From contig JAHLLQ010000001.1 in assembly GCA_020444065.1 (NCBI GenBank), positions 248,001 through 312,000 on the forward strand: a stretch of DNA of 64,000 nucleotides, given 5' to 3'. Within the stretch, counting starts at the first letter, position 1, and each line of letters opens with the position of its first letter. The stretch comes from a bacterium (GTDB lineage Bacteria > Sumerlaeota > Sumerlaeia > SLMS01 > JAHLLQ01). A model generated the notes under the pieces. The model ran no database searches. It was given only the letters and a program-made list of their open reading frames with translations, and was not told the DNA's origin. Position numbers and translations under genes: made by a program. Positions 658 to 23,035 of this stretch are shown piece after piece.

Positions 658-660
658 ATC

Positions 661-1137: not shown

Positions 1138-1299
1138 TCGCACAGTTCCCCAGCGGGCGGTTGACTTTCAGGGGCCCGCAAATGTCCTTTGAGAGAGCTT
1201 CGGGCGCAGCCCCGCACCGGCACAAGGGCAACAAGCTCAGGGCGGCGCAATTCTTGTTACTCCTCGCCTCAGGATCTTGCGGGGAAGAAACCACAATTC

Positions 1300-2298: not shown

Positions 2299-2317
2299 TA
2301 CGGGAAAGAGAATCATC

Positions 2318-2818: not shown

Positions 2819-2892
2819 GAGCGCCCGCCCGTTTTTCCCTCCGTCATAGTCCGGGTTTCCCTTTCGTGGCCCGGGGCACTTAGGGCCAAATG

Positions 2893-2909
2893 CCTACCAG
2901 GTTGGTAGG
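2893..2909 (+). promoter_or_regulatory. 7-bp hairpin just upstream of the argD ribosome binding site
   Basis: CCTACCA and TGGTAGG are perfect inverted repeats separated by GGT, ending five bases before AAGGAG (2914-2919) of the aminotransferase gene. A second, weaker stem (GGCCC 2868-2872 with GGGCC 2883-2887) lies just 5'. There is no T-run, so it is not an intrinsic terminator. It could tune translation start or mRNA stability, but this rests on position and symmetry alone. Confidence 0.4.
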
Positions 2910-2923
2910 GAATAAGGAGAATC

Positions 2924-4135: not shown

Positions 4136-4229
4136 AATCGGCGAACATTCGCCTGAATTCGCGGGCAACCATGGGACACATTCGAGCCCCAGAGGATTTG
4201 TTCGCCCAAAGACCCGGAAGGATCGCACC

Positions 4230-5972: not shown

Positions 5973-5983
5973 CGGATTCTGTC

Positions 5984-8272
5984 TTACTTTGCATTCGTCG
6001 TGGAGTTCTGCTGGGCCGCCGTTTCGGCGGCCTTTTCCTTCGGCAGCTCTTTTGCCTTACTGGCCGCAGTCTCTTTCTTGACCTTCGGCGTGCGCTGCGC
6101 GCGCTTCCCCTTGGACTTGGAAGTCGTTCGCCTTCCACCCTTGTGTCGCTTGCTCAGTTCGGAGGCAAGTTCCTCCGGTGGCAAAGCACCTTCCCACTTT
6201 TCTCCGCTGCTCTCGACGGCTTCTACCATCAAGAGTTCTTCCTGGCTGCGGAAGGGTTGTTCGCCAGAACGGAGTTTCGGTCGGCGGTATTTGCCATCCG
6301 AATTCATGTAGCGCGCCTTCACGTTGTCCTTTTGGCATGATGCGAAGATCTCGTTGATCAGACGATTTTTCAGATCCGCGTTGTTGACTGGGAACATGAC
6401 CTCAATGCGCCGATCCATGTTTCGGTCCATCCAATCCGCCGAGGAGAGGAAAACCTTCGTGTCGGGGTCTTCACCAAAGATGAAAATGCGGCTATGCTCC
6501 AGGAAGCGATCGACGATTGACCAAATGCGAATGTTCTCGCTGATGCCCTTGATGCCGGGGCGCAGGCAGCAAATACCGCGGATGTTGATGTCGATCTGCA
6601 CACCGGCACGACTGGCGCGATAGAGCTCAACAATGATGTCCGGGTCGACGAGCGAGTTCATCTTGGCCCGAATGCGAGCGGGTTTGCCGCGTTCGGCCTT
6701 TTCGCGCTCGGCCGCGATGAGCGCCGTCGTTTTTTCGCGCAGGTGCTCCGGGGCAACGATGATGCGTTGCCAACGCGGCGAATGCGAGTAGCCCGTAAGC
6801 ATATTAAACAGTTCCGACGCGTCTTCGCAGAACCCCTGGTCGCAAGTGAACATGCCGAGGTCCGTGTATAGCTTCGCTGTCGATGGATTGTAGTTGCCGG
6901 TTCCCATGTGGACATAGCGACGGATTGCGTCGCCTTCTTTGCGAACCACGAGGGCGACCTTGCAGTGCGTCTTCAGACCAACGAGGCCGTACACGACATG
7001 GACGCCGGCTTCTTCCAACTGGCGCGCCCACACGATGTTGTTTTCCTCATCGAATCGGGCCTTCAGTTCAACCAGGGCCGTGACCTGTTTGCCGTTCTCA
7101 GCGGCGCGAATCAGCGACTTGATGATCGGCGAATCGCCGCTCGTGCGATAGAGTGTCTGCTTGATGGCGAGGACCTGGGGATCGTTTGCCGCGTCACGGA
7201 TGAAGTCGACAATCGGTGCAAATGATTCAAACGGATGGTGGAGCAGAATGTCCTGGCGACGGATGCGACTGAACATGCTGCCGTGCCGGCGCAGGTTCTT
7301 GCGGATGTTTGGCTGGAATGGCGCGACCTTCAGATGGTCGTAGCTGTCCAGTCCCCAGATAACCGAAAGTTCGGAAACGGCGATCGGCCCGTTCACGCGA
7401 TAGACCTGCAGGTCGTTCAGCCCGAGCATCCGCATCAGGTACCCAGTGAGAAGCTCGGACGCCTTGTGCCCGATCTGCAATCGGACGGCCATGCCGCGTT
7501 CACGCTCGCGAATTTCCGTCTCGATGTATTTCAGGAGATCTTCGGCGTCGATTTCCTTGTACTCGATATCTGCATCGCGAGTCACGCGGAAGGGAACGGC
7601 CTCTTTGACCTTCAGTCCTGGGAACAGGGAAGAGAGATTCTCGATAATCAGATCTTCCAGAAGAACAAATCGTCGACGTCCCTGCGTCGGTGGAATCTCG
7701 ATCAAGCGAGGCAGCACCGAAGGCACCTGGACAATTGCGATCATCGGCTCGCCCGAGCGAACGCGCTTTGATCCTTCCAGGTGAACGATGACATTCAGCG
7801 ACAGACCCTTCAGACGCGGAAACGGGTGTCCGGAGTCCACAGCCAGCGGTGTCAAAACGGGGAAAATCTCCTTCGCATACAACTCGCGAGTGTGCTTCTG
7901 CATCTTGCGCGATAGCGACGACGGATGCATGATCAGGATTCGTTCATCAGCCAGCCGCGGAACGATTTCTTCGCGAAAGCAATCATAAAGGGCATCGACC
8001 TGGGCGTGCGCTTCCTGATGAATGAGGTTGAACTGCTCGGAAGGCGAAAGCCCCGCAGGCGTGCGCCGACGAACGCCGGAGAAGATCTGGTCTTGCACCC
8101 CCGAGACGCGCACCATGAAGAATTCGTCAAGGTTCGTGGCGACAATGCCAAGGAACTTGAGGCGCTCGAACAACGGCGTTGCGGGATCTTGGGCCTCTTC
8201 CAGCACGCGTTTGTTGAACGCGAGCCAGGAGAGTTCCCGGTCGACGAAGTGCTTGGTATCCCGATAAGCCAT
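5984..8272 (-). CDS. ppk1: Polyphosphate kinase 1 with basic C-terminal tail
   Basis: 762 residues. Makes polyphosphate from ATP by an autophosphorylated histidine intermediate. The N-domain start FVDRELSWLAFNKRVLEEA is a family signature. H436 (GLKTHCKVAL), H455 (RRYVHMGTGNYNP, the phosphorylated His of the family) and H593 (FLEHSRIFIFG) are in place, as are the ATP-binding RARFDEENNI-type and SSADWMDRNMDRRIE segments. Residues after ~690 form a Lys/Ala/Thr/Ser-rich tail of about 70 residues absent from most homologues. AGGAGG lies eight bases before the ATG. It is divergent from the methyltransferase gene across 57 bases. Confidence 0.96.
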   Translation of the reverse strand: MAYRDTKHFVDRELSWLAFNKRVLEEAQDPATPLFERLKFLGIVATNLDEFFMVRVSGVQDQIFSGVRRRTPAGLSPSEQFNLIHQEAHAQVDALYDCFREEIVPRLADERILIMHPSSLSRKMQKHTRELYAKEIFPVLTPLAVDSGHPFPRLKGLSLNVIVHLEGSKRVRSGEPMIAIVQVPSVLPRLIEIPPTQGRRRFVLLEDLIIENLSSLFPGLKVKEAVPFRVTRDADIEYKEIDAEDLLKYIETEIRERERGMAVRLQIGHKASELLTGYLMRMLGLNDLQVYRVNGPIAVSELSVIWGLDSYDHLKVAPFQPNIRKNLRRHGSMFSRIRRQDILLHHPFESFAPIVDFIRDAANDPQVLAIKQTLYRTSGDSPIIKSLIRAAENGKQVTALVELKARFDEENNIVWARQLEEAGVHVVYGLVGLKTHCKVALVVRKEGDAIRRYVHMGTGNYNPSTAKLYTDLGMFTCDQGFCEDASELFNMLTGYSHSPRWQRIIVAPEHLREKTTALIAAEREKAERGKPARIRAKMNSLVDPDIIVELYRASRAGVQIDINIRGICCLRPGIKGISENIRIWSIVDRFLEHSRIFIFGEDPDTKVFLSSADWMDRNMDRRIEVMFPVNNADLKNRLINEIFASCQKDNVKARYMNSDGKYRRPKLRSGEQPFRSQEELLMVEAVESSGEKWEGALPPEELASELSKRHKGGRRTTSKSKGKRAQRTPKVKKETAASKAKELPKEKAAETAAQQNSTTNAK
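6014..6036 (+). terminator. Intrinsic terminator of the sulfite reductase operon, inside the 3' end of ppk1
   Basis: GGCCGCCG (6014-6021), a TTT loop, CGGCGGCC (6025-6032) and TTTT form a perfect 8-bp GC stem followed by a U-run on the plus strand, 42 bases after the cysI stop. The same bases encode part of the Ala/Lys-rich tail of the convergent ppk1 protein. Confidence 0.8.
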
Positions 8273-10283: not shown

Positions 10284-11368
10284 GCCTGGGCGTCCTCGAG
10301 AGACTCAGGAGCCGGCTCCGAATCGTCCTCCGAACCCAAGGGAACAACGTGCTTCATCAACAGCGCGTGAATGGCCTTCGTTGTCTCCTCGGCGGGTGCT
10401 CCCCCACCGGCCTCGACAGGACAACGCTCGTGATCGGAAACAAGCTCGGAAAGCGCCGCGTACAGGTTGGCCGCCTCTGCTCGTCGGCCAAGGAGGAACA
10501 GGACTGCGGCAGCAGCAGCCAGAAAGCCTACCGGCCCGGGCTGGCGGTCGCGCGGCAGTCCGGTGTGGCCTACCTGAGCCGCTCGCAACTGGGGACCGCA
10601 CAGGATGCGGGGCACAAGCGCGGGAGTATGCAGCGCGGCCCATGCGCCGGCGATGGGAGGTGCCGTCATCCCTGTTGTAATCGTGACAGTGGGAGCCTGT
10701 TCGCCGGCGACGAGCAAACATGCTGCTTCCTCCGGCGAAAGAGTGCGGCTCTCAGCCATCAAGCGAGCGCCAAGTCCCTGGACAATTGCTGCACGCCACT
10801 CTTCGTAAATGGCCGGCCAGTGCACACTGGGAAACGCCAGTCCGACGGGCTCCGTGGCTGTCGCGGCAATCTGCGCAGCGATCTCGCCGCAGAGGGACAG
10901 GCTGCGGCGGTCGAGCGCGATAACTGCCGCTCCCCCATCGGCTTTGCGCTGGCGCAAACGCCGGCTGCGTCGCTGGAGTTTGAAAGGAATGGTCGAGAGT
11001 TCCAGGCCGTCGTGCAGTTCGCCGCGCGCCGGTGTCAGAATCCACCGCGGAGCCCCCCCACGCCCGGGAGCGACCCAGCCATAAACGGCGCCACCGGTGG
11101 CTAGGCTCCAATCGTCGGAAGGACTGATCGATGCGGTAGCCGGACCGACGACAAGACCGGCAGCGCGCACGCGGCGCGCATGGCGCTTCAGATCGCCGTC
11201 CTGCTGACGACTGAACGTGGTAATGGTGAACCAGATTCCAGGGAATGCCAGCCGCAGGAGGGGCTCCGCCTGCTGGGCAATCTGCTTGTCCGTCGAGTCA
11301 AGAGTGACGAGGGCAACACGGCGCTGGGAAGCGCCTTCCCGGCCGGCGGTCCCCTCGTCCTGGGTCAT
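10280..11368 (-). CDS. Degenerate isocitrate/isopropylmalate dehydrogenase-like protein
   Basis: 362 residues, no signal peptide. No close family comes to mind, but the second half follows the isocitrate/isopropylmalate dehydrogenase plan: a basic segment (KLQRRSRRLRQRKADGG), a helix of RSLSLCGEIAAQIA type, FPSVHWPAIYEEWRAAI where active enzymes have KANVxxxxxLW, LRAAQVGHTGLPRD where they have EAVHGSAPDIAG, and GPVGFLAAAAAVLFLL where they have NPIAxxLSAAMML. The catalytic Lys, the metal-binding Asp residues and the N-terminal GDGIG motif are not seen. If homologous, it is a pseudoenzyme. It overlaps by ATGA both the upstream PTS IIA-like gene and the downstream glycosyltransferase gene, so it is expressed with them. 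The acidic tail (EDDSEPAPESLEDAQA) is non-conserved-looking. Alternative: an unrelated unknown protein. Confidence 0.5.
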   Translation of the reverse strand: MTQDEGTAGREGASQRRVALVTLDSTDKQIAQQAEPLLRLAFPGIWFTITTFSRQQDGDLKRHARRVRAAGLVVGPATASISPSDDWSLATGGAVYGWVAPGRGGAPRWILTPARGELHDGLELSTIPFKLQRRSRRLRQRKADGGAAVIALDRRSLSLCGEIAAQIAATATEPVGLAFPSVHWPAIYEEWRAAIVQGLGARLMAESRTLSPEEAACLLVAGEQAPTVTITTGMTAPPIAGAWAALHTPALVPRILCGPQLRAAQVGHTGLPRDRQPGPVGFLAAAAAVLFLLGRRAEAANLYAALSELVSDHERCPVEAGGGAPAEETTKAIHALLMKHVVPLGSEDDSEPAPESLEDAQA

Positions 11369-11832
11369 GTCATGGCCTCATAGGCTTCGATGAAGAGGTC
11401 CACGACCTCCTCATTCGTCTTCGCCATCAGGATCTTCTTCCGAAAATCGCCGTCCTTCAGCGCACGGACCAGCTTGCTGAGAACCTTCAGGTAGTCGCCG
11501 GATTGGGACTCGTTGCATCCGATCATCACGACGATGTGGGCCGGCTTCTCGTCGATCGACTGGAAGTCGACGCCCTGGAAGCTGCGCCCCACGGCGATCA
11601 CGAAGTCCTTGATCGATGGAATCTTGACGTGAGGAAGCGCGACACCGATCCCAACTCCGGTTGAGAGGGTCTTCTCGCGCTCGAGGATGCGGTCGAGGAG
11701 TTCCTTGCGATCGGTGACCTGCTCGGAATTGCCGAGGACATCGACCAATTCACGCAGGACGTCCTCCTTGGTAGAGCTTTTCAAATCCGCCACGCGTGAC
11801 GGTGAGAACATTTTCTTTGGATCAATAGCCAT
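11365..11832 (-). CDS. PTS IIA-like domain protein (fructose/PtsN type)
   Basis: 155 residues, a single EIIA type-2 domain. The phosphorylatable His lies in TGVGIGVALPHVKIPSI near residues 58-74. Other family landmarks are RELVDVLGNSEQV, ILEREKTLSTG, and IVVMIGCNESQSGDYLKVLSKLVRAL. Stand-alone copies (PtsN-like) usually serve in regulation instead of sugar uptake. No EI, HPr or IIBC gene is visible here. It is first in a minus-strand operon with the dehydrogenase-like protein (4-base overlap) and a glycosyltransferase, which suggests a regulatory role in carbohydrate or envelope metabolism. That suggestion is inference. Confidence 0.88.
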   Translation of the reverse strand: MAIDPKKMFSPSRVADLKSSTKEDVLRELVDVLGNSEQVTDRKELLDRILEREKTLSTGVGIGVALPHVKIPSIKDFVIAVGRSFQGVDFQSIDEKPAHIVVMIGCNESQSGDYLKVLSKLVRALKDGDFRKKILMAKTNEEVVDLFIEAYEAMT

Positions 11833-12228: not shown

Positions 12229-13836
12229 GTGTCTCTTGGGAAGATTGGTCATCGCACTCCCCGCCGCGAGGTCTATCCCAGCGAGTGGGTCGAATCTGAA
12301 GGTATCCCCGGTCACAAGCGCCCGGCCCTGTTCTACCAGGATCCGAAGCCGCTGCCGATCGCCGATCATGGCGAAGGGATTTACATCTACGACAAAGAAG
12401 GCAACCAGTACCTGGACGGCTGCAGTGGCGCGATCTCCACGAATCTTGGTCATGGGCACAAGCGCATCATCAAGGCAGCCGAAGAGCAGATGAAGAAGAT
12501 CGCGTTTGCCTATCGAACACAGTTCGAGTCGGAGCCGGCAAACGAGCTCGCAGACTTGCTGGCCCGTCTATCTCCGCCGGAACTGAATCGCGTTTTCTTC
12601 GTCAACTCGGGTTCCGAAGCCGTCGAGTCTTGCATCAAGTTGGCACGTCAATTCTGGTGGTCGGTCGGGCGCACGGGAAAGAACCTTATCATCGCACGCA
12701 GACCGTCCTATCATGGGGCAACGCTGGGTGCGCTATCGGCAACGGCTTACGCTCCGCTGAACATCCCGTTCCGCAGCCTTCAACTGCACTTCCCGAAGGT
12801 CTCGGCACCGTACTGCTATCACTGTCCTCTCCAGAAAGAGTACCCCAGTTGCGACATGGCGTGTGCGCGTGATCTGGAGCGCACAATCCGCGTCTGGGGG
12901 CCGGAGAACATCGCCGCCTTCATTACCGAGCCCATCGGCGGCGCATCGACCGGTGCGGCCGTTCCGCCGGACGAGTGGTTCCCGATGGTGGAGCGCATCT
13001 GCAACGAGTACGAAATCCTGCTGATCGTCGATGATGTCATGACCGGCTGCGGACGCACTGGGACTTTCTATGGGTACGAGCACTGGGATATTACGCCTGA
13101 CATGGTGGCCGTGTCGAAAGGGCTGTCCGGCGGCTACACGCCGATCGGCGCGTGCATCGCCAGCGAGGAAGTCGTGCAGCCGGTATTGGAATCCGGCGGA
13201 TTCATGCACGGACATACCTATGCAGGAAATCCATTGTCCGCGGCAATCGCGCGCGAAGTCGTGATGACCATCGTCGACGATGGACTCGTTGAAAATGCCC
13301 AGAAGATGGGAACGATCATGCACGAGCGCCTGTGGGAGATGAAGGCCAAGTACCCGATCATCGGCGATATCCGAGGGCGCGGGTTGATGGCGGGCGTAGA
13401 GTTCGTGCGCGATCGCGGTCTGCGCGAGCCGTTCCCGCCGAACTGGCGTGTTGCGCTGGAAGCCACGGACATTGCCCGTGAACAGGGCCTGCTGATCTAT
13501 CCGAGACGTTCGCTGTATGGACTCTCCGGCGATCATGTTCTTCTCGCGCCGCCGCTGATTGTGGATGAGGCTGGCATCGAGGAATTGATCCTGCGGTTTG
13601 ACAGGACCATGGAGGGCTTGATGAGACTGCTCGAACGTTTCCTCGAGCCGGAGCCGGCGGATGTCGACGATGGTACGGTCCACCGCTACGAGACCGCGGA
13701 GCATCTGCCCGATTATGCCATCGGCAAGATCGAAGACATCCAGCCAGACTTGTCCGTCAACGTGTCGGCTCAGATGTCTGAAGGTGCAGACGATCTCAAG
13801 GGCGTCGACCTGGTCGAAGAAAGTGATCTGCTGTGA
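12229..13836 (+). CDS. yodT: YodT-like class III aminotransferase with Cys cluster and C-terminal extension
   Basis: 535 residues from a GTG at 12229 with GAGAAGGAT upstream (an ATG further 5' lacks a ribosome binding site). PLP enzyme: FFVNSGSEAVESCIKLA, SYHGATLGALSATAY, DDVMTGCGRTGTFYG, Schiff-base Lys297 in VAVSKGLSGGYTPIGA. The segment APYCYHCPLQKEYPSCDMAC holds four cysteines (C196, C199, C208, C212). The same CxxC-x8-C-x3-C pattern is remembered in Bacillus YodT (PYCFRCPVQKVYPTCQLACA), which is why I call it YodT-like. The last ~70 residues are an acidic extension not expected in the family. It is the first gene of the operon and overlaps the CoA-transferase A start (GTGA). Proposed role: transamination of the 3-amino group of N6-acetyl-beta-lysine to a 3-oxo acid (inference). 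Confidence 0.85.
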   Translation: MSLGKIGHRTPRREVYPSEWVESEGIPGHKRPALFYQDPKPLPIADHGEGIYIYDKEGNQYLDGCSGAISTNLGHGHKRIIKAAEEQMKKIAFAYRTQFESEPANELADLLARLSPPELNRVFFVNSGSEAVESCIKLARQFWWSVGRTGKNLIIARRPSYHGATLGALSATAYAPLNIPFRSLQLHFPKVSAPYCYHCPLQKEYPSCDMACARDLERTIRVWGPENIAAFITEPIGGASTGAAVPPDEWFPMVERICNEYEILLIVDDVMTGCGRTGTFYGYEHWDITPDMVAVSKGLSGGYTPIGACIASEEVVQPVLESGGFMHGHTYAGNPLSAAIAREVVMTIVDDGLVENAQKMGTIMHERLWEMKAKYPIIGDIRGRGLMAGVEFVRDRGLREPFPPNWRVALEATDIAREQGLLIYPRRSLYGLSGDHVLLAPPLIVDEAGIEELILRFDRTMEGLMRLLERFLEPEPADVDDGTVHRYETAEHLPDYAIGKIEDIQPDLSVNVSAQMSEGADDLKGVDLVEESDLL

Positions 13837-14525
13837 TTGATCGTACAGAGGGACTCGAGCGCGCGATCGAATCGACAATTCGATCCGGACAGACAATCAT
13901 GGTTGGAGGATTCGGAAGAGGCGGCGTGCCTTTCTCCATCCTCGAATACCTCTCAGATCGACCGGATACGATCCGCGATCTCACGCTTGTCAAGAACGAC
14001 GCCAACGAACCCGGCCTTGGAATCGGTGCGCTCCTGCGCAACGGCCAGGTTAGGAAACTGATCGCCACGCACATCGGACTGAACCCGGAATTTATCGATC
14101 AGATGAACCGCGGCGAAGTCGAGTGCGAGCTTGTGCCGCAGGGCATTTTTGCGGAACGAATTCGAGCCGGCGGCGCAGGGATTCCGGCCTTCCTGACAGA
14201 CATTGGAATCGGAACCGTTGTGGCGGAAGGCAAACAGCGTGTGGAACTCGACGGACGCGAAGTGTTGCTGGAACGGGCGTTGCGCGGCGACGTCGCCATC
14301 ATATGCGCGGATAAGGTCGATCGCGCGGGAAATTCCTGGTGGCGCGGCTCGAATCGCAACATGTGCGTCGCCATGGGAACGGCCTGTGATCGCGTGATTG
14401 TTGAAGCGAAGAAAATCGTGGAAATCGGTGAACTCGAACCGGAGAGCGTGCATCTGCCTTGCGTGTACGTCGACTACGTCGTCCAGGCCCAGCCCCGCCG
14501 GCACCAGCAGGAGGCGTCGTCATGA
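13833..14525 (+). CDS. 3-oxoacid CoA-transferase family, subunit A
   Basis: 230 residues. The start GTG overlaps the preceding TGA (GTGA). Family I CoA-transferase alpha subunit: TIMVGGFGRGGVPFSILEYL near 23-42 is the glycine-rich CoA-binding signature (GGFGxxGxP), and GGAGIPAFLTDIGIGTVVAEG near 112-132 is the F-x-T-x-x-G-x-GT region. KVDRAGNSWWRGSNRNM and YVDYVVQAQ complete the fold. With the next gene it forms the usual alpha/beta pair. It corresponds to YodS of the Bacillus yod operon. It would move CoA from succinyl- or acetyl-CoA to a 3-oxo acid. The exact acid is not readable from sequence, but the operon suggests 3-oxo-6-acetamidohexanoate. Confidence 0.88.
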   Translation: MIDRTEGLERAIESTIRSGQTIMVGGFGRGGVPFSILEYLSDRPDTIRDLTLVKNDANEPGLGIGALLRNGQVRKLIATHIGLNPEFIDQMNRGEVECELVPQGIFAERIRAGGAGIPAFLTDIGIGTVVAEGKQRVELDGREVLLERALRGDVAIICADKVDRAGNSWWRGSNRNMCVAMGTACDRVIVEAKKIVEIGELEPESVHLPCVYVDYVVQAQPRRHQQEASS

Positions 14526-15190
14526 GCTTCTGGAAGAAAATGGGGACGGAGGAAGAGATCATCGTCCGGCGCGCCGTGAAAGAGCTGCGCAGCGGGATGG
14601 TCGTGAATCTCGGCATTGGAATGCCGACTTTCGTTCCAGGTGTTCTGCCAGCGGATGTCGATGTGGTGTTCCAATCCGAGAACGGCTTCACCGGGATGGG
14701 AACGCCGCTTGAGAATGGAACCCCGGACAACGACATCATCGATGCGGGCGGAAGGGCTTGCACCTTGATAGATGGCGCGGCCTGTTTCGATAGCGTAACA
14801 TCCTTCGGGATTATTCGCGGTGGTAATCTCGACATGGCAATCCTCGGTGCATTCGAGGTCAGCCTGCGTGGCGATCTGGCAAACTGGATGATTCCGGGCA
14901 AGCTGACACCCGGCATGGGAGGCGGAATGGAACTGGCGCAGAAGGCGAATCACGTGCTCGTCGTCAGCCGCCATTTGGACAAGAAGGGGCGCGGCAAGCT
15001 CGTGCCCGAATGCACGCTGCCACTCACGGCTCCACAGTGCGTCGACACACTGGTGACAGACCGCGCGCTCTTCCGGCGGATCGACGGCTGGATGACGCTG
15101 TGCAGCGTGCACCCCGACCACACGGAAGAGACGGCGCTGGAGGGCATCGCGGCGGATGTCCGCGTCGCTGACGATCTCGAGCCGTGGTGA
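14522..15190 (+). CDS. 3-oxoacid CoA-transferase family, subunit B
   Basis: 222 residues. The ATG at 14522 overlaps the subunit A stop (ATGA) and is preceded by AGGAGG. The catalytic glutamate that carries the CoA thioester is E53 in VFQSENGFTGMG (SENG motif). VVNLGIGMPTFVP near 27-40 and IIRGGNLDMAILGAFEVS near 98-115 are family landmarks, followed by MGGGMELAQKANHVLVV. Partner of the preceding subunit A, corresponding to YodR of Bacillus. Together they would activate the oxo acid for thiolytic cleavage by the thiolase encoded two genes downstream. Confidence 0.9.
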   Translation: MSFWKKMGTEEEIIVRRAVKELRSGMVVNLGIGMPTFVPGVLPADVDVVFQSENGFTGMGTPLENGTPDNDIIDAGGRACTLIDGAACFDSVTSFGIIRGGNLDMAILGAFEVSLRGDLANWMIPGKLTPGMGGGMELAQKANHVLVVSRHLDKKGRGKLVPECTLPLTAPQCVDTLVTDRALFRRIDGWMTLCSVHPDHTEETALEGIAADVRVADDLEPW

Positions 15191-15215
15191 GACGAGCTTG
15201 ACGAAAGGAAGTGCG

Positions 15216-16517
15216 ATGAAACTGGAGCAAACCGAAATTCGAGCTGCTCTTGAGTCACGGCGTTCGTGGGCGGTCGATTCACTGACGGAGTGGGTGCGAC
15301 GGGCGAGTACGCTGGGCAATGAGCAAAGCGCACAGGAACACGTGGCGGCGCTGTATGAGCAACTTGGCCTTGCGACGAAGATGCTCCCGGTCGATCACGA
15401 CAAGATCAGCAAGTTGCCCGGCTATTCGCCGGTCGATTGGAGTTATGAGGGCCGCCAGAATGTCATTGGAGTTCACGATCCCGGCACAAACGAAGGGCAA
15501 TCGCTGGTCTTTAACGGGCACGTCGATGTGGTGAGTCCTGAGCCGATTTCGCTGTGGTCGAATCCGCCATTCGAGCCAAAGGTCGTGCAGAACGAAGAGG
15601 ATGGCGAGGAGTGGATGTACGGCCGCGGCGCGGCGGATATGAAGGGCGGCTCGATGTGTTTCCTTTGGGCAATGGCAGCGCTACGCGATATGGGGCTCGA
15701 ACCGGCCTCCAAGGTGATCTTCCAGTCGCCGCTCGAAGAAGAGTGCACGGGAAATGGAACGTTGGCTCTCCTTGCGGATGGTTACACGGCAGATGGGTGC
15801 CTGATTCCTGAGCCTTTCAACGAGACGATTCTTCTGCGCCAGGTCGGAGTGATCTGGTTTGATGTACGCATTCTCGGCAAGACAACGCATGTCCTCGGTG
15901 CCGGCAGCGGAGTGAATGCGATTGAGAAGATGTGGGTGATCATTCAGGCTCTTAGAGAGCTGGAGACCGAGCTCAATCAGCCGGAACACATCCCACCCTC
16001 GTACGCAGGAATCGAGCATCCAATCAATCTGAACGTCGGCACAATTCAGGGAGGCGATTGGGCGAGCACCGTCGCTGGCGAGTGCGTCACGCGCTTCCGC
16101 CTCGGGCTGTTCCCCACGGATACTGTGGAGGAGCTGAAAGAGGCCATCCAGATGACTGTCGCCCAGGCCGCCGCAGAGGATCCCTGGCTGGCAGAGTACC
16201 CGCCCACGGTTGAGTTCATCGGCTTCCACGCTGAAGGGGCGAAGTTCGATCCCGACTGCGACTTGGGGCAGACCCTACGCGACGCCCACGAGGAATGGCG
16301 AGGCGTCGAGCCGGTGCCATTGCGGGCAACGTGCACGACGGACGTGAGGTTCTTCACGAATAACTACGATATCCCGGCGACATGCTATGGCCCGAAGTGC
16401 CGTAACATCCATGCAGCGGATGAGAAAGTCAGCATCGATTCCATGCAACGCGTCGCCGAGGTCATGGTGACTTTCATTGAACAATGGTGTGGGCTGAGAA
16501 AGAGGGACGGAGCATGA
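15216..16517 (+). CDS. yodQ: YodQ-like M20 family deacylase (ArgE/DapE-type)
   Basis: 433 residues from the ATG at 15216 with AAAGGAAG upstream; Bacillus YodQ has nearly the same length. Di-zinc M20 amidohydrolase: metal ligands in VFNGHVDVVSPEP (His, then Asp as base-supporting residue), YGRGAADMKGG (bridging Asp), SPLEEECTGNG (catalytic Glu and metal Glu), LIPEPFNE (metal Asp/Glu site) and KCRNIHAADEKVS (last His). The lid domain lies around 190-310. It would remove an acyl group from an amine, as ArgE does with N-acetylornithine. In this operon the fitting substrate is 4-acetamidobutyrate or its precursor, yielding 4-aminobutyrate (inference). Confidence 0.85.
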   Translation: MKLEQTEIRAALESRRSWAVDSLTEWVRRASTLGNEQSAQEHVAALYEQLGLATKMLPVDHDKISKLPGYSPVDWSYEGRQNVIGVHDPGTNEGQSLVFNGHVDVVSPEPISLWSNPPFEPKVVQNEEDGEEWMYGRGAADMKGGSMCFLWAMAALRDMGLEPASKVIFQSPLEEECTGNGTLALLADGYTADGCLIPEPFNETILLRQVGVIWFDVRILGKTTHVLGAGSGVNAIEKMWVIIQALRELETELNQPEHIPPSYAGIEHPINLNVGTIQGGDWASTVAGECVTRFRLGLFPTDTVEELKEAIQMTVAQAAAEDPWLAEYPPTVEFIGFHAEGAKFDPDCDLGQTLRDAHEEWRGVEPVPLRATCTTDVRFFTNNYDIPATCYGPKCRNIHAADEKVSIDSMQRVAEVMVTFIEQWCGLRKRDGA

Positions 16518-17695
16518 AACTGCGCGAACCGATCGCCCTGTATGGTCTGAATCGCACGCCGATGGGAAAGCTCGGCGGAATGCTGGCGAAGTTCGAGCCG
16601 TATGAGTTGCTTGCGGCGACATTTCGCGAGACGCTGAAGTCCATACCAACGCCCGCACCGGAAGATGTTCTCACTGGCTGCGTGAGAAACGGAATCGGCA
16701 ACATCGCGCGAGTGGCCGCGCTCGCAGCCGGCGTCGACGAATCCGTACCGGCAGCGACAATCGATCGCCAGTGCGCCTCCAGCCTGGAGACGCTCGCGAT
16801 CGCTGCGGCCAAGATCAACGCTGGCCTCGCGGATCAACTTCTGATCGGAGGCGTGGAGAGCGCCAGTCGTGCCCCATGGATGTTCGAGAAGACTTCACGG
16901 CCCTACAGCTACGCAGAACCGCGTGCATTACGCATTCGCATGGCAACCGAAGAAGTCGGCGATCCGCCGATGGGCGAAACGGCAGAGATCCTGGCCGATG
17001 AGTTCTCTATCACGCGCGAGGACATGGACGCGTTTGCCTGCGAAAGCCATCGGCGTGCAGCCGAGGCGGCTGGGCAATTCGCTGATGAATCCGCCGCCGC
17101 CGGCGCGGCGTTGCTTGCGAAAGCTGATTCTATAGTGGATGAATGCGTCCGGCCGGACACTTCGATCGACAAGTTGGCCAAGTTGCGTCCGGTCTTCCGA
17201 CGCGACGGGCGCGTAACCGCCGGGAATTCGTGTCCTTTGAATGACGGAGCGGCATCGTGTCTGGCCGTCTCAAAGGGCACGGCACAGAAGATTGGCGCTC
17301 CCGACGCTTGGATCACCGGCGTCTCGACGGTGGGTTTGGCTCCGAAGCGAATGGGTCTCGGCCCAGCCATCGCGATCCCTCGTCTGTTGAAAGAACAAGG
17401 CATCGCGATCGAAGATGTCGATCTTGTGGAAATCAACGAGGCGTTTGCCGCGCAGATTCTGGCGGCTCTTCGAAAGATGGAGCAGGATGGTGTCGCCATT
17501 TCACGCGATCGCCTGAATATCTTCGGCGGCGCGATTGCACTTGGGCATCCGCTCGGTGCGACAGGGTTACGGCTGGTCGTGACATTGGTGAATGCGCTGC
17601 GCGTGCGCGGCGCGAACCGAGGAATCGCGGCACTCTGCGTCGGCGGTGGCCAGGGTATGGCCCTGATGTTGGAACGCGAATTGTCGGATAACTGA
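16514..17695 (+). CDS. Acetyl-CoA C-acyltransferase (thiolase)
   Basis: 393 residues, usual thiolase length. The ATG at 16514 overlaps the previous stop (ATGA). Nucleophile Cys87 in TIDRQCASSLETLAIA, NEAFAAQ near 310, general-base His in GGAIALGHPLGATG and second Cys in CVGGGQGMALMLE. All four thiolase signatures are intact. The enzyme would cleave a 3-oxoacyl-CoA to acetyl-CoA plus a CoA ester shortened by two carbons. In the proposed route that means 3-oxo-6-acetamidohexanoyl-CoA to 4-acetamidobutyryl-CoA. Bacillus yod operons lack such a gene, so its presence here supports the thiolytic step. Confidence 0.92.
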   Translation: MKLREPIALYGLNRTPMGKLGGMLAKFEPYELLAATFRETLKSIPTPAPEDVLTGCVRNGIGNIARVAALAAGVDESVPAATIDRQCASSLETLAIAAAKINAGLADQLLIGGVESASRAPWMFEKTSRPYSYAEPRALRIRMATEEVGDPPMGETAEILADEFSITREDMDAFACESHRRAAEAAGQFADESAAAGAALLAKADSIVDECVRPDTSIDKLAKLRPVFRRDGRVTAGNSCPLNDGAASCLAVSKGTAQKIGAPDAWITGVSTVGLAPKRMGLGPAIAIPRLLKEQGIAIEDVDLVEINEAFAAQILAALRKMEQDGVAISRDRLNIFGGAIALGHPLGATGLRLVVTLVNALRVRGANRGIAALCVGGGQGMALMLERELSDN

Positions 17696-17709
17696 GAAAG
17701 GAATAGATA

Positions 17710-19005
17710 ATGGCAACGGGTACGTTGACGAATGCAGAACTAATGAAGCGGCGCGAGGCGGCTGTTCCGCGCGGGCCGTTCAATGTGGGGCCGATCTTCG
17801 CCGACCGCGCAGAAGGCGCGCTGCTCTGGGATGTTGAGGGCCATGAGTACATCGACTTCTGCGGCGGAATCGGCGTTGTAAACTCCGGGCACAATCATCC
17901 GGCCGTTGTGGATGCGGTGAAGAGGCAAGCCGACCGCTTCATTCACACGTGCTGGCACGTGGCCATGTACGACGAGTACCTGCGCCTGGCAGAACGTCTG
18001 AATGAATTGGTCCCCATGCCGGGTCCGAACAAGACGGCATTCTTCAACAGCGGCGCAGAAGCGGGTGAGAATTGTGTGAAGATTGCTCGCGCCTATACGG
18101 GACGCGCCGGTGTCGTTAGTTTTGAACGTGGCTTCCATGGACGCACGCTTCTCGGAATGACGATGACCGGAAAAGTGAAGCCCTACACGGCCGGTTTTGG
18201 CCCCTTTGCTCCGGAAGTCTATCGTCTCCCCTACCAGCCGTTCTTTAGCGATCGCCCGCGCACGGACGACGAGGTTCGCGCCGAATGCCGTGGCGCACTC
18301 GATCGCCTGTTCCACTATCATATCGAGCCGGAGAGCATCGCATGCATCATTGTCGAGCCAGTGCTCGGCGAAGGCGGATTCTACCCGATCCATCCGGTGG
18401 CGTTCGCCATGTTGCGCGAGGAGTGCACAAAGCACGGGATCGTGCTCGTCAGCGATGAAGTGCAGGCCGGCTTCGGACGTTGCGGGGCAATGTTCGCCTG
18501 CGAGCGCTACGACATTGTCCCAGATCTGATTGCGATGGCGAAGTCACTCGGTGGCGGCATGCCACTCAGCGCTGTGACAGGCACTGCTGAGATTATGGAC
18601 GCTCCCGGGATTGGCGGGATCGGCGGAACGTATGGCGGCAATCCGCTGGCATGTGCTGCCGCGAATGCCGTGCTGGATGTGATGGAGAAGGAAGCTCTGC
18701 CGGAGCGCGCGAATGCGATCGGCAAGAAAGTTCTCTCGAAATTCCGCGATCTGCAGGCGCACGACTGGGTGGGCAATGTCCGTGGCCTCGGTGCGATGTG
18801 CGCCATCGAAATCATCGATCCCGAGACGAAGGCGCCGGATACAGCTCGGGCCGGACGGATCACAGTGGCGGCTCGCGAGAAGGGCCTACTCGTGATGACC
18901 GCCAGCGGAAATGTCATCCGAACATTGATGCCGCTGGTCATCACCGACGACCAACTCGACCGCGCCCTCGACATCCTGGCGGACGCCATCGCATCTGCTG
19001 GGTGA
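17710..19005 (+). CDS. gabT: 4-aminobutyrate aminotransferase-type class III aminotransferase
   Basis: 431 residues with AAAGGAA before the ATG. PLP enzyme: DFCGGIGVVNSGHNHP near 49-64, FFNSGAEAGENCVKIAR near 111-127, FHGRTLLGMTMTGK near 142-155, VSDEVQAGFGRCG near 247-259, Schiff-base Lys278 in IAMAKSLGGGMPLSA. The long insert PYQPFFSDRPRTDDEV and the FHYHIEPESIACIIVEPVLGE region are as in GabT. It would convert 4-aminobutyrate and 2-oxoglutarate to succinate semialdehyde and glutamate. The immediately following aldehyde dehydrogenase makes this assignment strong. Confidence 0.88.
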   Translation: MATGTLTNAELMKRREAAVPRGPFNVGPIFADRAEGALLWDVEGHEYIDFCGGIGVVNSGHNHPAVVDAVKRQADRFIHTCWHVAMYDEYLRLAERLNELVPMPGPNKTAFFNSGAEAGENCVKIARAYTGRAGVVSFERGFHGRTLLGMTMTGKVKPYTAGFGPFAPEVYRLPYQPFFSDRPRTDDEVRAECRGALDRLFHYHIEPESIACIIVEPVLGEGGFYPIHPVAFAMLREECTKHGIVLVSDEVQAGFGRCGAMFACERYDIVPDLIAMAKSLGGGMPLSAVTGTAEIMDAPGIGGIGGTYGGNPLACAAANAVLDVMEKEALPERANAIGKKVLSKFRDLQAHDWVGNVRGLGAMCAIEIIDPETKAPDTARAGRITVAAREKGLLVMTASGNVIRTLMPLVITDDQLDRALDILADAIASAG

Positions 19006-19049
19006 TTTATCTCCGTCCCTACTTATTGAAAAGGTAAAGGAGCTCCAAA

Positions 19050-20414
19050 ATGCCATACCAGACACTGAATCCCGCGACCGATGAGTTGGTCGAGGAGTAC
19101 CCATATCTGGAGCAACCGCAGATCGATGCGGCGCTGGATCGAGCCGTCGCGACACACAAGGATTGGCGAAAGGTCCCGTTCGCACGCCGCGCGGAGGGGC
19201 TGATGAAAGTCGCCGATGCGCTGGAGAAACGTGCCGAAGAATTCGCGCGAACAATGGCGTTGGAAATGGGCAAGCCCGTTACAGAGGGCAAGGGCGAAGC
19301 GCAGAAGTGCGCGTGGGTTTGTCGCTTCTATGCCGAGAATGCGGAAGAGATGCTGAAGAGCGTGAGTGCCGAGTCGGATGCCTCGGAATCGTTCGTTCGT
19401 TACGATCCGCTCGGCCCCATCCTGGCCATCATGCCTTGGAATTACCCCTTCTGGCAAGTGTTCCGCTTTGCTGCTCCGGGGCTAATGGCGGGCAATGTGG
19501 CTCTGCTGAAACACGCTTCAAACGTGCCTCGTTGTGCAATGCAGATCGAGGAACTCTTTCGCGATGCAGGGTTCCCCGAACATGCCTTTCAATCAATCTT
19601 CGTTTCCGGGTCGCAGGCCAGCGCAATCATCGGCGATAAGCGCATCAAGGGCGTCACGCTGACTGGCAGCACGGAGGCCGGGCGCAAGGTCGGCGAGGCT
19701 GCCGGACGTGCCATCAAGCCCTGCGTGCTCGAACTCGGTGGCAGCGATCCGTTCATCGTCCTGGACGATGCAGACGTCAAGACCGCCGCAAAAGTCGGTG
19801 TAGCCTCGCGTTGCCTGAACAGCGGCCAGAGCTGCATCTCAGCAAAGCGATTCATCGTGACCAAGGCCGTTTTGGATGAGTTCACAGAGATTTTCACCAA
19901 CATCATGAAGGGGCGCGTGATGGGCGATCCGATGTCGGATGAGACGGATGTCGGACCGCAGGCACGGCCGGACCTTCGCGATGAATTGGCAGAACAGGTC
20001 CAGCGAAGCATCGATGCTGGAGCGAAGGCGGCGTGTGGCGGCTGCGTTCCCGAACGCAAGGGCGCTTTTTATCCGCCGACTGTCCTGACGGATGTTCGTC
20101 CCGGCATGGCTGCTGCAGATGAGGAGTTGTTCGGTCCCGCGGCTGCGATCATCGCGGTCAAGAACGAGGCCGAAGCGATCGAAGTCGCCAATCGCACAGA
20201 CTTCGGCCTGGGTGCGAGCCTCTGGACGGAAGATGCGGATCGCGCCAAGCGACTGATCCCTGAGATCGAAGCCGGCGCCGTTTTCGTGAACGGCCTTGTG
20301 AAGTCCGATCCTCGCCTGCCATTCGGCGGCATCAAGGAATCCGGCTTCGGCCGCGAGCTTTCGCGCGAAGGGATCCTCGAATTTGTCAACCAGAAGACCG
20401 TCTGGATTCGGTAA
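19050..20414 (+). CDS. gabD: NAD(P)-dependent succinate-semialdehyde dehydrogenase
   Basis: 454 residues, the length of GabD1-type enzymes. AAAGGAG precedes the ATG. Aldehyde dehydrogenase signatures: MPWNYPFWQVFR near 128-139, TGSTEAGRKVG near 205-215, general-base Glu228 in LELGGSDPF, catalytic Cys262 in NSGQSCISAKRF, and EELFGPAAAI. It would oxidise succinate semialdehyde to succinate, the last step of the operon's route into the TCA cycle. A GC-rich hairpin lies just downstream (20441-20470). Confidence 0.9.
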   Translation: MPYQTLNPATDELVEEYPYLEQPQIDAALDRAVATHKDWRKVPFARRAEGLMKVADALEKRAEEFARTMALEMGKPVTEGKGEAQKCAWVCRFYAENAEEMLKSVSAESDASESFVRYDPLGPILAIMPWNYPFWQVFRFAAPGLMAGNVALLKHASNVPRCAMQIEELFRDAGFPEHAFQSIFVSGSQASAIIGDKRIKGVTLTGSTEAGRKVGEAAGRAIKPCVLELGGSDPFIVLDDADVKTAAKVGVASRCLNSGQSCISAKRFIVTKAVLDEFTEIFTNIMKGRVMGDPMSDETDVGPQARPDLRDELAEQVQRSIDAGAKAACGGCVPERKGAFYPPTVLTDVRPGMAAADEELFGPAAAIIAVKNEAEAIEVANRTDFGLGASLWTEDADRAKRLIPEIEAGAVFVNGLVKSDPRLPFGGIKESGFGRELSREGILEFVNQKTVWIR

Positions 20415-20440: not shown

Positions 20441-20476
20441 CGCCCCCGTCAGGAACCACTGGCGGGGGCGCTTGTT
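20441..20476 (+). terminator. Probable terminator of the seven-gene operon
   Basis: CGCCCCCG (20441-20448) and CGGGGGCG (20463-20470) form an 8-bp stem with a 14-base loop, followed by CTTGTTT. It starts 26 bases after the gabD stop and overlaps the hflC stop on the other strand, so it may work in both directions. The U-tract is interrupted. Confidence 0.6.
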
Positions 20477-21597
20477 TCGGTTTCGTTCGACGCCGCGTCA
20501 TTGCCGAGCAGGTCGACTTCGCCATCGAGCAACTCTGGCAGATCCGCTTCTTCCGATTTGTCATCGCCGATGATGTCCTTAAGATCTGGAATCGGAGGCG
20601 CATTCTCAAGGTCGCCAATCGAACCCAGTTCCTTTAGGTACTGGAAGTAGGAAGTGTCCGTTCCAAGGACAAGAGTTGTTCCAGACCCGATCGTCGTTGG
20701 ATAGCTTTCCAGGGTGCGCAGGAAAGCGTAGAACTCGGGATCGCTGCTGAAAGCCTGGCCATAGATGCGCGTCGCTTCCGCATCGGCCTTGCCTTTGATT
20801 TCCTCGGCCTTTCTCTGCGCAACAGACTGGATCTCGCGCAGCTTCTTCTCGGTCTCACCCCGGATTTCCGCACTGCGCCCTTCACCTTCGCTGCGGAACT
20901 GCGTTGCGATGCGTTCGCGTTCCGAAATCATCCGATCATAGACCTTCTTTCGAACCTGCTCGACGTAATTCAGCCGCTTGATGCGGAAGTCGACGAGTTC
21001 AATGCCGATAGTTGGCGTTTGAGCCGACGCCTTCTCCAGGATTCGCTCTGTCAGCCCTTCGCGTCCGATTCGGATTTCGCGAGTCAGCGTCTCTTCGTCG
21101 GTTTCGCTGCTCACGACAACCTGGTCACGCTCCAGATCTGCCCGCGCAACATCCCAGGTGGTCGAGCGGACAATCTCCACCAGTTCCAGGCTGGAGATCT
21201 CGTCACGAACGACAGAATCGATGATGTCGTCCAGGCGCGACTGCGCGCCTTGCTCATCTCGCACGCTTTCGAGGAACAACTGCGGTTTCACGATCTTCCA
21301 GCGCGCGGTGGTATCGACGAAGATGAACTCGCGACCCTTTGTCGGGATTTCATTCGGGAATCCATCCCAGGTCAGCAGTCGCTTGTCGAAGCGGCGGACT
21401 TCCTGGATGAATGGTTTCTTGAAGTGCAGTCCCGGATCGTCGATCGGCTCACCGACGGGAGCGCCAAACTGCAGGATGATCACCTGCTCCTTCTCGTCGA
21501 CTGAGTACATTGCGGATCCCAGTGTAATCAGGACGAAAAGGCCAACAATACCGAAGAAGACAGTGGCAAGGAGGGTCGATTTACGAACGGCAGCCAT
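20449..21597 (-). CDS. hflC: HflC, SPFH-family protease modulator
   Basis: 382 residues. One N-terminal membrane helix (about 10-30), then an SPFH/band-7 domain: VDEKEQVIILQFGAPVGEP, DPGLHFKKPFIQEVRRFDKR and FVDTTARWKI. A Glu/Arg-rich coiled coil (about 215-280) includes RERIATQFRSEGEGRSAEIR. HflC pairs with HflK to form the periplasmic-side cage that controls the FtsH protease. The ATG at 21597 is chosen over a GTG one codon earlier because AAGGAGG sits seven bases upstream. It overlaps the hflK stop (TGATG). The acidic Asp/Glu-rich tail after ~330 is longer than usual. Confidence 0.93.
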   Translation of the reverse strand: MAAVRKSTLLATVFFGIVGLFVLITLGSAMYSVDEKEQVIILQFGAPVGEPIDDPGLHFKKPFIQEVRRFDKRLLTWDGFPNEIPTKGREFIFVDTTARWKIVKPQLFLESVRDEQGAQSRLDDIIDSVVRDEISSLELVEIVRSTTWDVARADLERDQVVVSSETDEETLTREIRIGREGLTERILEKASAQTPTIGIELVDFRIKRLNYVEQVRKKVYDRMISERERIATQFRSEGEGRSAEIRGETEKKLREIQSVAQRKAEEIKGKADAEATRIYGQAFSSDPEFYAFLRTLESYPTTIGSGTTLVLGTDTSYFQYLKELGSIGDLENAPPIPDLKDIIGDDKSEEADLPELLDGEVDLLGNDAASNETETSAPASGS

Positions 21598-22595
21598 CAC
21601 TTCACCTCCTTGGCGGAATCGAGATTCAGTATGGGCAAGGGGCCGGCCTGTCCTTCTTCCATCAGGTAGATCTGGCCAACCTTCGGCAGAACTTCATCAA
21701 TGGATTCGAGATAGAGACGCTGGCGCGTGACTTCCGGTGCGCCGCGATACTCGCGAACAATCGAAAGGAATCGAGCGGCTTCGCCCTTCGCACGATTGAT
21801 GCGCTCCACGCTGTAGCCTTGCGCTTCGGCGATCGTCTGGCGCGCTTCGCCGAGAGCGCGCGGAATCACCTCGTTCCGATGTCGCTCGGCTTCGTTGATC
21901 ATCCTCTCGCGCTCCTGGCGCGATTCGTTGACGGCGTTGAAGGAGGGCTTCACGCGGTCCGGCGGCGTGACGTCCTGCAGCTCAACGCGCAGGATTTCGA
22001 TGCCTGAGTCGTAAGACTTCAGTAGCGCCTGCATCTCTTCCTGCGCTTTGCTGGCGATCTCAACACGTCCGACCGTCAGCGCATCGCTGCCGAGGCGATT
22101 GCCGATGATGCGGCGCATGGTGGCTTCGGAGACATCACGAATGGCCTCTGCCGGATCGCGAACGCCACGGAACAGGTACTTCACGGGATCGCTGATTCTG
22201 TATTGAACGACCCATTCGACATCGATGACGTTCAGGTCGCCAGTGAGCATTAGCGATTCATCGCTGAAGTTCTGCTGCGAGTACTGCGTGCGCTGACCGG
22301 CCTCGACGGTGCGGAATCCAAATTCCTGCTTCAGGATACGCTCCGTCGGGACGAACTGGGCCCGATCGATGCCGAAGGGGATTTTGAAGTGCAGCCCCGG
22401 GTCGGAGACGCCGATGACCTTGCCGAAGCGCCGAACGACCGCGCGGCCTTCGGGTTCGACGGTATAGACGGAGCTGATCCCGCCGATGATCAGAATGAGC
22501 AAGACAATCAGGGCCACCAGACCCTTGACGACCGCCCTCCCGTGGCGAGCAATGTCCACCACTTGGGGGAAGTCCTGATTTCCTGGTGTACGCAT
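21597..22595 (-). CDS. hflK: HflK, SPFH-family protease modulator
   Basis: 332 residues from the ATG at 22595, which has GGAGGT six bases upstream (an upstream GTG lacks this). A membrane helix near 25-48 is followed by the band-7 domain: VEPEGRAVVRRFGKVIGVSDPGLHF split across 52-76, and the HflK-typical QVQY/YRISDPVKYLF region, GNRLGSDALTVGR and ILRVELQDVTPPDRVKPSFNAV. A coiled coil spans about 230-290. Forms a hetero-multimer with HflC around FtsH. Unlike many HflK proteins it lacks a long Gly/Pro-rich N-terminus. Confidence 0.93.
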   Translation of the reverse strand: MRTPGNQDFPQVVDIARHGRAVVKGLVALIVLLILIIGGISSVYTVEPEGRAVVRRFGKVIGVSDPGLHFKIPFGIDRAQFVPTERILKQEFGFRTVEAGQRTQYSQQNFSDESLMLTGDLNVIDVEWVVQYRISDPVKYLFRGVRDPAEAIRDVSEATMRRIIGNRLGSDALTVGRVEIASKAQEEMQALLKSYDSGIEILRVELQDVTPPDRVKPSFNAVNESRQERERMINEAERHRNEVIPRALGEARQTIAEAQGYSVERINRAKGEAARFLSIVREYRGAPEVTRQRLYLESIDEVLPKVGQIYLMEEGQAGPLPILNLDSAKEVK

Positions 22596-23035
22596 ATAGA
22601 GACCTCCGAACACGAGAAGCGTGCGGTTACTTTCACTGTACGGCGGTCAGGCTGCCTTTATTCACCGGACGGAGGCAAGGATGGGATTCGGGCGGCCCAG
22701 AATGGAAACGCCCCCGGGAGGTCATCCCTCCCGGGGGGCGTTGAAAAGGTCCCGCTTCGCCGTCCAGCCGTGGCCTTAGAACCTCAAGGTAAGGTGGGCG
22801 CCCGCATGACAACCTCATGATTCCCTGACTGAGAGGGCATTCAATCCGCCATCACAAAAGGCTCCCCAGTAGTATACATTGGCTCTGAAAACCTTGGGCC
22901 GAACCAACGTCGCAGGAAGCTCTTCCGTCCCATAGGGACATTCGAATTCTCCGACCAAACGGGCCCTTTGGCAACTGCAATCGACGCGTTCGGTTTCCCT
23001 TGCATTCGAGCGCAGACGGGCCTCACCGTGTCACG
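22596..23035. other. Non-coding gap holding a long GC-rich hairpin
   Basis: No credible gene in 440 bases. The main structure is an inverted repeat at 22707-22721 and 22727-22742 (15-16 bp, one bulged G, five-base loop). It may be a terminator for the upstream serine-hydrolase transcript or a structured 5' leader of hflK. Only a weak T-rich stretch follows on the minus strand. A minus-strand TATACT hexamer at 22871-22876 could be a -10 element for hflKC, but no good -35 partner is seen. Confidence 0.4.

Follow-up and report, generated by a model that had tools for sequence, protein, structure and literature searches.

The 64,000-nucleotide stretch analyzed here (the window; positions 248,001 to 312,000 of contig JAHLLQ010000001.1, assembly GCA_020444065.1) belongs to a Sumerlaeota genome of 5.2 Mb in 14 contigs and carries, at positions 12229 to 20414 of the plus strand, seven co-directional genes that very probably form the downstream part of lysine catabolism via N6-acetyl-beta-lysine and 4-aminobutyrate (GABA) to succinate. 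These genes encode, in order, a class III aminotransferase (AT), the A and B subunits of a coenzyme A (CoA)-transferase (CoaA and CoaB), an M20 deacylase, a thiolase, a GABA transaminase (GabT), and a succinate-semialdehyde dehydrogenase (SSADH). A preliminary description of the stretch had placed the seven genes at the same positions, given them these families, and read them as a path from N6-acetyl-beta-lysine to succinate. The open reading frames, the NCBIfam and Pfam matches, and the catalytic motifs confirm the placement and the families, while the metabolic interpretation is supported by AblA and AblB proteins encoded in the same genome and by gene rows of Planctomycetota that join ablA and ablB to orthologues of the operon.

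The following scheme is predicted from the sequences, as regards all substrates, the identity of the CoA donor, the order in which thiolysis, CoA donation, and deacylation occur, and the catabolic direction. AblA, encoded elsewhere in the genome, would convert L-lysine to beta-lysine, and AblB would acetylate its N6. With 2-oxoglutarate as the acceptor, the AT would then remove the 3-amino group to yield 3-oxo-6-acetamidohexanoate, onto which the CoA-transferase would load CoA, and the thiolase would release acetyl-CoA and leave 4-acetamidobutyryl-CoA. We propose that this product is a possible CoA donor for the CoA-transferase step, leaving 4-acetamidobutyrate, in which case the thiolytic cycle would need no ATP. 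The M20 deacylase would remove acetate to give GABA, or would act on the CoA ester, and GabT and the dehydrogenase would convert GABA to succinate. Acetylation would shield the terminal amine, because a free 3-oxo-6-amino acid is expected from general chemistry to cyclise.

The strongest evidence tying the operon to ablA and ablB, which settles the association, comes from three Planctomycetota genomes (L060, L064, and L191) that share one row, MarR-AblA-AblB-ABC-ABC-AT-CoaA-CoaB-M20-thiolase-GabT. In L060 and L064, the row lies on a single strand with small gaps, and its ABC genes encode a substrate-binding/permease protein followed by the ATPase of an amino acid-type transporter. The SSADH gene ends the row in L060 and L191 (the genes of L191 were placed by the ends of tblastn matches, and its SSADH is truncated where the extracted stretch stops), and the L064 contig stops after GabT. 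The row proteins are 51 to 70% identical to the seven proteins of the window, and the AblA of the rows is 56 to 58% identical to that of the window genome. In a tree of a chosen set of KamA-family proteins (leaving out L051 and L153), the AblA proteins of L060, L064, and five Sumerlaeota genomes and one of those of Bin270 form one clade with a support of 1.0, apart from canonical AblA. The clade is referred to below as divergent AblA.

This linkage is matched by the distribution of the genes among 294 Planctomycetota genomes, in each of which up to four AT and AblA candidates were scored. Divergent AblA is present in four of them (55 to 56% identity, 571 to 583 bits; the next match by score has 42% and 236 bits), and a window-type AT is present in three, all of which are among these four (0 of the 290 others; hypergeometric p of ∼1e-6, kinship ignored). 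In the fourth genome, divergent AblA lies on a 3.3-kb contig that ends right after MarR-AblA-AblB. Another 71 Planctomycetota genomes present more distant KamA-family matches alone, and no window-type AT.

The window genome encodes candidates for both upstream enzymes on contigs other than that of the operon, in agreement with the preliminary description, which had stated that kamA and yodP are absent from the window and had named a search for them in the rest of the genome as a check. The AblB protein (L003) scores 258.8 bits against TIGR03827, over the cut-off of 205.1. The AblA-like enzyme of the KamA family (L001; 562 amino acids as the longest frame) aligns with residues 8 to 340 of the structure 2a5h and retains the three cysteines as well as R112, R134, D293, D330, and K337. 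We take D293 and D330 to bind the lysine side chain, the cysteine triad to be that of a radical SAM enzyme, and K337 to be the lysine that binds pyridoxal 5′-phosphate (PLP). The kept aspartates make L001 a candidate lysine 2,3-aminomutase. Assignment of L001 as a glutamate or arginine 2,3-aminomutase was rejected, as it scores 235.6 and 219.5 bits against cut-offs of 650 and 600 and keeps both aspartates. A second KamA-family protein of this genome (L002:1441-2583) is without the lysine-binding aspartates, with an arginine at position 293 and a gap at position 330, and was rejected as a lysine enzyme. No close orthologue of the ABC ATPase of the L060 row was recognized in the window genome (11 matches at 1e-30, with 34 to 40% identity); with no dedicated importer recognized, peptides or turnover may be the source of the lysine.

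Relatives of the divergent AblA are also found on plasmids (L192:15989-17263, L195:3197-4477, and L194:11986-13290), with ∼50% identity on rhizobial plasmids and ∼45% on Klebsiella plasmids; one lies near polyketide/adenylation genes and another beside genes annotated as hypothetical. In Bin270 (L168, positions 69 to 6051), a separate divergent ablA, accompanied by a MarR gene, lies next to a canonical ablA and ablB; the co-occurrence of both AblA types hints at distinct functions.

The same chemistry could serve another purpose, the recycling of N6-acetyl-beta-lysine stored as a compatible solute, for example after a drop in salt. In other organisms the product of ablA-ablB is an osmolyte, as proposed for Pelobacter in a passage of PMC3543383, and in Sumerlaeota the separation of ablA, ablB, and the operon would permit separate regulation. 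The ablA-ablB systems of methanogens and Pelobacter share the first two enzymes and the intermediate with the proposed route; in those osmolyte systems, however, the product is thought to accumulate, and the AblA of the window genome falls in a separate clade. Moreover, the three Planctomycetota rows join ablA-ablB, the breakdown genes, and an amino acid-type ABC transporter, an arrangement in which the solute would be produced and degraded at the same time. With its synthesis and breakdown apparently encoded on one transcript, acetyl-beta-lysine looks like an intermediate, and Bin270 keeps its canonical pair beside a divergent ablA as if the latter were for another job. Of the two purposes suggested in the preliminary description, the feeding of lysine carbon into metabolism is therefore favored, and osmolyte recycling is less supported and appears improbable.

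Lysine catabolism via N6-acetyl-beta-lysine also agrees with the distribution of the genes within the phylum, for which 40 genomes were searched, that of the window included (the loci L058, L059, and L063 are taken as belonging to G018, G020, and G017, respectively, and are not independent of this search). Three Sumerlaeota relatives have an AT of 66 to 76% identity. Two genomes of the same family as the window genome, G018 and G020, conserve the order of the first six genes (56 to 75% identity), which argues that the gene order is not due to chance. All five genomes of this family contain divergent AblA (73 to 100% identity) and AblB over its cut-off, and four contain an AT of at least 66% identity (the window genome, G017, G018, and G020). 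In the other 35 genomes of the phylum, AT or AblA of such likeness is found in none and AblB over the cut-off in five.

More widely, the best 80 loci of at least 551 AT relatives were taken from a scan of genome contigs, and AblB and the KamA family were searched in 49 genomes that hold one of these loci (L136 left out). AblB over the cut-off is present in all seven genomes whose AT is at least 62% identical to that of the window versus 1 of 42 others, and the KamA family over its cut-off is present in 7 of 7 versus 7 of 42 (kinship ignored in both comparisons). The single one of the 42 with AblB is a Marinimicrobia metagenome-assembled genome (MAG; L067:3573-8284), where an AblB gene in convergent orientation lies next to the M20 end of AT-CoaA-CoaB-M20, a more distant tie of the set to AblB; a search of the same genome for a KamA-family protein retrieved no match.

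The neighbors of the 80 AT loci, counted by tblastn at 60 bits or more within 7.5 kb, fall largely into two alternative sets. CoA-transferase A lies near the AT in 46 loci, accompanied by subunit B in all 46, by M20 in 44, and by thiolase in 28. BKACE is found in 32 loci, and no locus of the 80 has both BKACE and CoA-transferase. The BKACE loci contain an HDAC-like deacetylase (28/32), a GNAT like that of L055 (10/32), and, in one case (L091), M20. An HDAC-like gene also occurs close to the AT in one CoA-transferase locus. Neither cleavage system is present in two loci, L063, where the contig ends, and L076, where an HDAC-like gene is found. In L055, L090, L088, L091, and other alphaproteobacterial loci, the BKACE and HDAC-like genes directly follow the AT, with a GNAT gene in some and M20 in L091. 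The alphaproteobacterial BKACE/HDAC-like sets (L055, L090, and others) share with the operon the AT family (44 to 47% identity) and the presumed logic but have BKACE in place of CoA-transferase plus thiolase and an HDAC-domain protein in place of M20. This pattern fits CoA-transferase with thiolase, on one hand, and BKACE, on the other, as alternative means of beta-keto acid cleavage, and M20 and HDAC-like proteins as alternative amide hydrolases. These unrelated alternatives are consistent with a series of reactions in which transamination yields a beta-keto acid that is then cleaved and deacylated. The alternative-module loci do not prove the substrate.

The operon might instead act, through equivalent reactions, on a different N-acylated beta-amino acid, such as a five-carbon homologue or a compound taken up from outside. 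Many AT loci carry amino acid ABC transporters, and these are often found where an AT of 44 to 51% identity occurs with CoA-transferase/M20; apart from that of Marinimicrobia, the genomes with such AT that were searched are without AblB over the cut-off. Furthermore, a further M20-family amidohydrolase is added in 12 of the 46 CoA-transferase loci, together with alanine racemase in L054. In L054 (positions 17279 to 19554) and similar Rhodobacteraceae loci, these two genes follow the thiolase gene, which suggests an entry point for an additional substrate that is acylated or has the D configuration. For the window, however, GabT and SSADH fit a four-carbon product and hence a six-carbon substrate, as a five-carbon substrate would yield beta-alanine, and the window-type orthologues share one row with ablA/ablB; a different substrate is therefore very unlikely. 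A patchwork of acetoacetate activation and thiolysis, N-acetylornithine-type deacylation, and a GABA shunt, as might be supposed from several family scores that are generic or under equivalog cut-offs and from the commonness of gabT and SSADH, is the least credible alternative and, in its plain acetoacetate/N-acetylornithine form, was rejected in view of the six-gene order kept in L060, L064, L191, and two Sumerlaeota relatives, the link to ablA/ablB, and the finding that loci of this AT family have BKACE or CoA-transferase but never both.

Several observations weigh against assigning the operon to lysine catabolism via N6-acetyl-beta-lysine. In the window genome, ablA, ablB, and the operon are unlinked, being on contigs C2, C4, and C1, and L001 scores 289.6 to 290.1 bits against TIGR03820 (lysine 2,3-aminomutase AblA), which does not reach the cut-off of 525.4. 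The outcome that the preliminary description had named as refuting its reading, a genome lacking a lysine 2,3-aminomutase or a beta-lysine acetyltransferase, was not observed, although the aminomutase is represented by an enzyme of the KamA family with the lysine-binding residues, not by an AblA of equivalog rank. The AblA of L060 is likewise below this cut-off, with an AblB over its own (211.3 versus 205.1 bits), and the AblB proteins of the L060 and L064 rows are only 35 to 36% identical to that of the window genome. Within the family, G018 and G020 have no dehydrogenase gene adjoining gabT, and G019 (80% complete) encodes AblA and AblB, yet a search for the AT at 1e-60 gave no match in it. 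Farther afield, the Desulfuromonadales MAG L062 combines a window-type AT with AblA/AblB pairs of canonical type, the rhizobial plasmid relatives of divergent AblA (50% identity) occur in other settings, and thiolase is missing within 7.5 kb in 18 of the 46 CoA-transferase loci, for which contig ends are not always to blame. Of the 49 AT-bearing genomes, 41, all proteobacterial or of Desulfobacterales, are without AblB over the cut-off, showing that AT, CoA-transferase, and M20 can occur together independently of AblAB. At loci without AblB, the substrate may be imported, or another substrate may be used.

The products of the seven genes were assigned to families with NCBIfam and Pfam, and nearest solved structures were obtained for six of the seven. 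The best curated model for the AT is NF005375 (YodT type; 484.6 bits, below the cut-off of 535); its PLP lysine is K297 in a VSKGL motif, and its orthologues in L024, L025, L060, L064, and L191 have 64 to 68% identity. The AT also contains a CxxC-x8-CxxxC motif, a cysteine motif being present in the Cytobacillus AT too, and is 85 to 100 residues longer, at both ends, than the compared Bacillus and L054 forms. CoA-transferase A is over the TIGR02429 cut-off (196.6 versus 128.5 bits), and subunit B, which contains the SENG motif, is just short of that of TIGR02428 (242.9 versus 243.55). The M20 protein has intact metal-ligand motifs and is closer to the ArgE/DapE-type model NF005306 (482.6 bits, cut-off 376) than to NF005373 (305.7 bits, under the cut-off of 428); in the alignment, the motifs of the Bacillus and L054 M20 proteins vary around the metal ligands. 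The thiolase matches acetyl-CoA C-acyltransferase TIGR01930 (383.3 bits, cut-off 240.55) and presents the catalytic Cys-His-Cys motifs, GabT passes TIGR00700 (549.3 bits, cut-off 506.65) with its PLP lysine present, and the best model for SSADH is NF006915 (585.6 bits, under the cut-off of 730). The catalytic motifs are also conserved in the compared orthologues, and the PLP lysines of AT and GabT and the M20 ligand, SSADH, thiolase, and SENG motifs presumably have the catalytic roles assigned to them here.

By comparison with relatives, three starts were moved inward, from 14459 to 14522 for CoaB, from 15156 to 15216 for M20, and from 16484 to 16514 for the thiolase. The resulting intergenic spacings of −4, −4, 25, −4, 14, and 44 bases bear out the tight packing that had been described, with four-base overlaps or gaps of up to ∼45 bases. 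The genes on both sides run in the opposite direction (Table 1). Rfam at gathering thresholds retrieved no RNA element for regulation of the operon in the window, the sole match being a 6S RNA.

Table 1. Genes of the operon and neighboring features in the window
Feature	Position	Strand	Length and start	Nearest solved structure, motif, or match	Proposed role
Class III aminotransferase (AT)	12229..13836	+	535 amino acids, GTG start		N6-acetyl-beta-lysine:2-oxoglutarate 3-aminotransferase
3-Oxoacid CoA-transferase subunit A	13833..14525	+			CoA loading onto 3-oxo-6-acetamidohexanoate
3-Oxoacid CoA-transferase subunit B	14522..15190	+		3cdk_B	
M20-family deacylase	15216..16517	+	433 amino acids	3pfo	4-Acetamidobutyrate (or CoA ester) deacetylase
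Thiolase	16514..17695	+			3-Oxo-6-acetamidohexanoyl-CoA to acetyl-CoA + 4-acetamidobutyryl-CoA
4-Aminobutyrate--2-oxoglutarate transaminase (GabT)	17710..19005	+		GABA transaminases	
Succinate-semialdehyde dehydrogenase (SSADH)	19050..20414	+		4it9/3vz1, both named succinate-semialdehyde dehydrogenase; GQSC (Cys) and LELGG (Glu) motifs	
Phosphotransferase system (PTS) EIIA-type gene, upstream neighbor	11365-11832	opposite to operon			
Next large frame downstream	20449-21600	−			
6S RNA	22745-22921	−		Rfam RF00013, 76.5 bits	

The first four genes follow the order of a row known from Bacillus. Bacillus velezensis (L193) and Cytobacillus spongiae (L196) have, as annotated, AT-CoaA-CoaB-peptidase-ablB-ablA with no further pathway gene alongside, and Bacillus subtilis (L197) has the same row as far as ablB, as expected from the earlier statement that the four genes sit with yodP and kamA in Bacillus. 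We take the names of the genes in this row to be yodT-yodS-yodR-yodQ-yodP-kamA. The AT-CoaA-CoaB-M20 order is shared with the window, with identities of 39 to 42% for AT, 40 to 43% for CoaA, 48 to 53% for CoaB, and 30 to 32% for M20. In contrast to the window genome, where ablA and ablB are elsewhere, ablB (and, in two of the three, ablA) is joined to the row, and the Bacillus AblA proteins are 36 to 39% identical to that of the window genome. Equating the first four genes with yodT-S-R-Q, as the preliminary description did, holds for order and resemblance but not for the curated models, since the AT and M20 of B. subtilis pass NF005375 and NF005373 (786.4 and 765.4 bits), whereas the window proteins fall short of both. 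Its remark that thiolase, GabT, and SSADH are missing from the Bacillus operon holds at all three loci, where these genes do not adjoin the row. For thiolase and SSADH, tblastn at 1e-15 retrieved no match in L196 and L197, and L193 was judged from its annotation alone.

Parts of the literature touch on these genes. In a passage of PMC6522883, B. subtilis KamA is said to have an undetermined function and YodT to be uncharacterized. According to a passage of PMC2654142, kamA is more abundant under CO2 in two strains of the Bacillus cereus group and is called a lysine catabolism gene, and in a passage of PMC2821294, ablA is said to cluster with ablB, both being called lysine degradation genes. 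Lysine fermentation (KamA, KamDE, Kdd, Kce, and Kal/Kat), as outlined in part of PMC3149608, shares with the proposed route the lysine 2,3-aminomutase start and a beta-keto acid cleavage but, in that outline, proceeds through other intermediates, with no acetylation, GABA, or succinate. Among the matches listed from titles and abstract openings of the open-licence PubMed Central (PMC) literature, none assigned genes to lysine breakdown through acetyl-beta-lysine.

Enzymes of aerobic beta-lysine degradation in a Pseudomonas were reportedly studied by the Barker laboratory from the 1970s to 1981, with a route said to lead through N6-acetyl-beta-lysine, 3-keto-6-acetamidohexanoate, 4-acetamidobutyryl-CoA, GABA, and succinic semialdehyde. 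These intermediates are the same as those proposed for the operon. The subunit of the Pseudomonas deacetylase-thiolesterase reportedly has ∼36.5 kDa, a size nearer to that of the HDAC-like protein (342 amino acids in L055) than to that of the 433-residue M20 protein. To our knowledge, no genes have been assigned to the Pseudomonas pathway. The chemistry would thus be already known, and what appears to be new is the gene-level, modular form of the route.

With moderate confidence, the reading can be extended to an acetyl-beta-lysine pathway that is widespread without having had genes assigned to it, in which acetylation protects the amine while six carbons are shortened to four. Such a pathway would be modular, with at least two non-homologous cleavage modules (BKACE, or CoA-transferase with thiolase or without it) and two deacylase modules (M20 or HDAC-like) around one AT family, would provide a function for the yod operon that Bacillus expresses during sporulation, and would use the thiolysis product as CoA donor for an ATP-free cleavage.

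If the assignment is correct, a little-known route of lysine breakdown is tied to a gene set, and database labels such as “aspartate aminotransferase family,” “ArgE/DapE deacylase,” and “KamA family radical SAM” could become specific. The presence of ablA/ablB in a genome need not then signal osmolyte synthesis, and the yod genes of Bacillus would gain a testable role. Furthermore, the Planctomycetota row would be a candidate complete gene set from lysine to succinate, transferable to a laboratory host.

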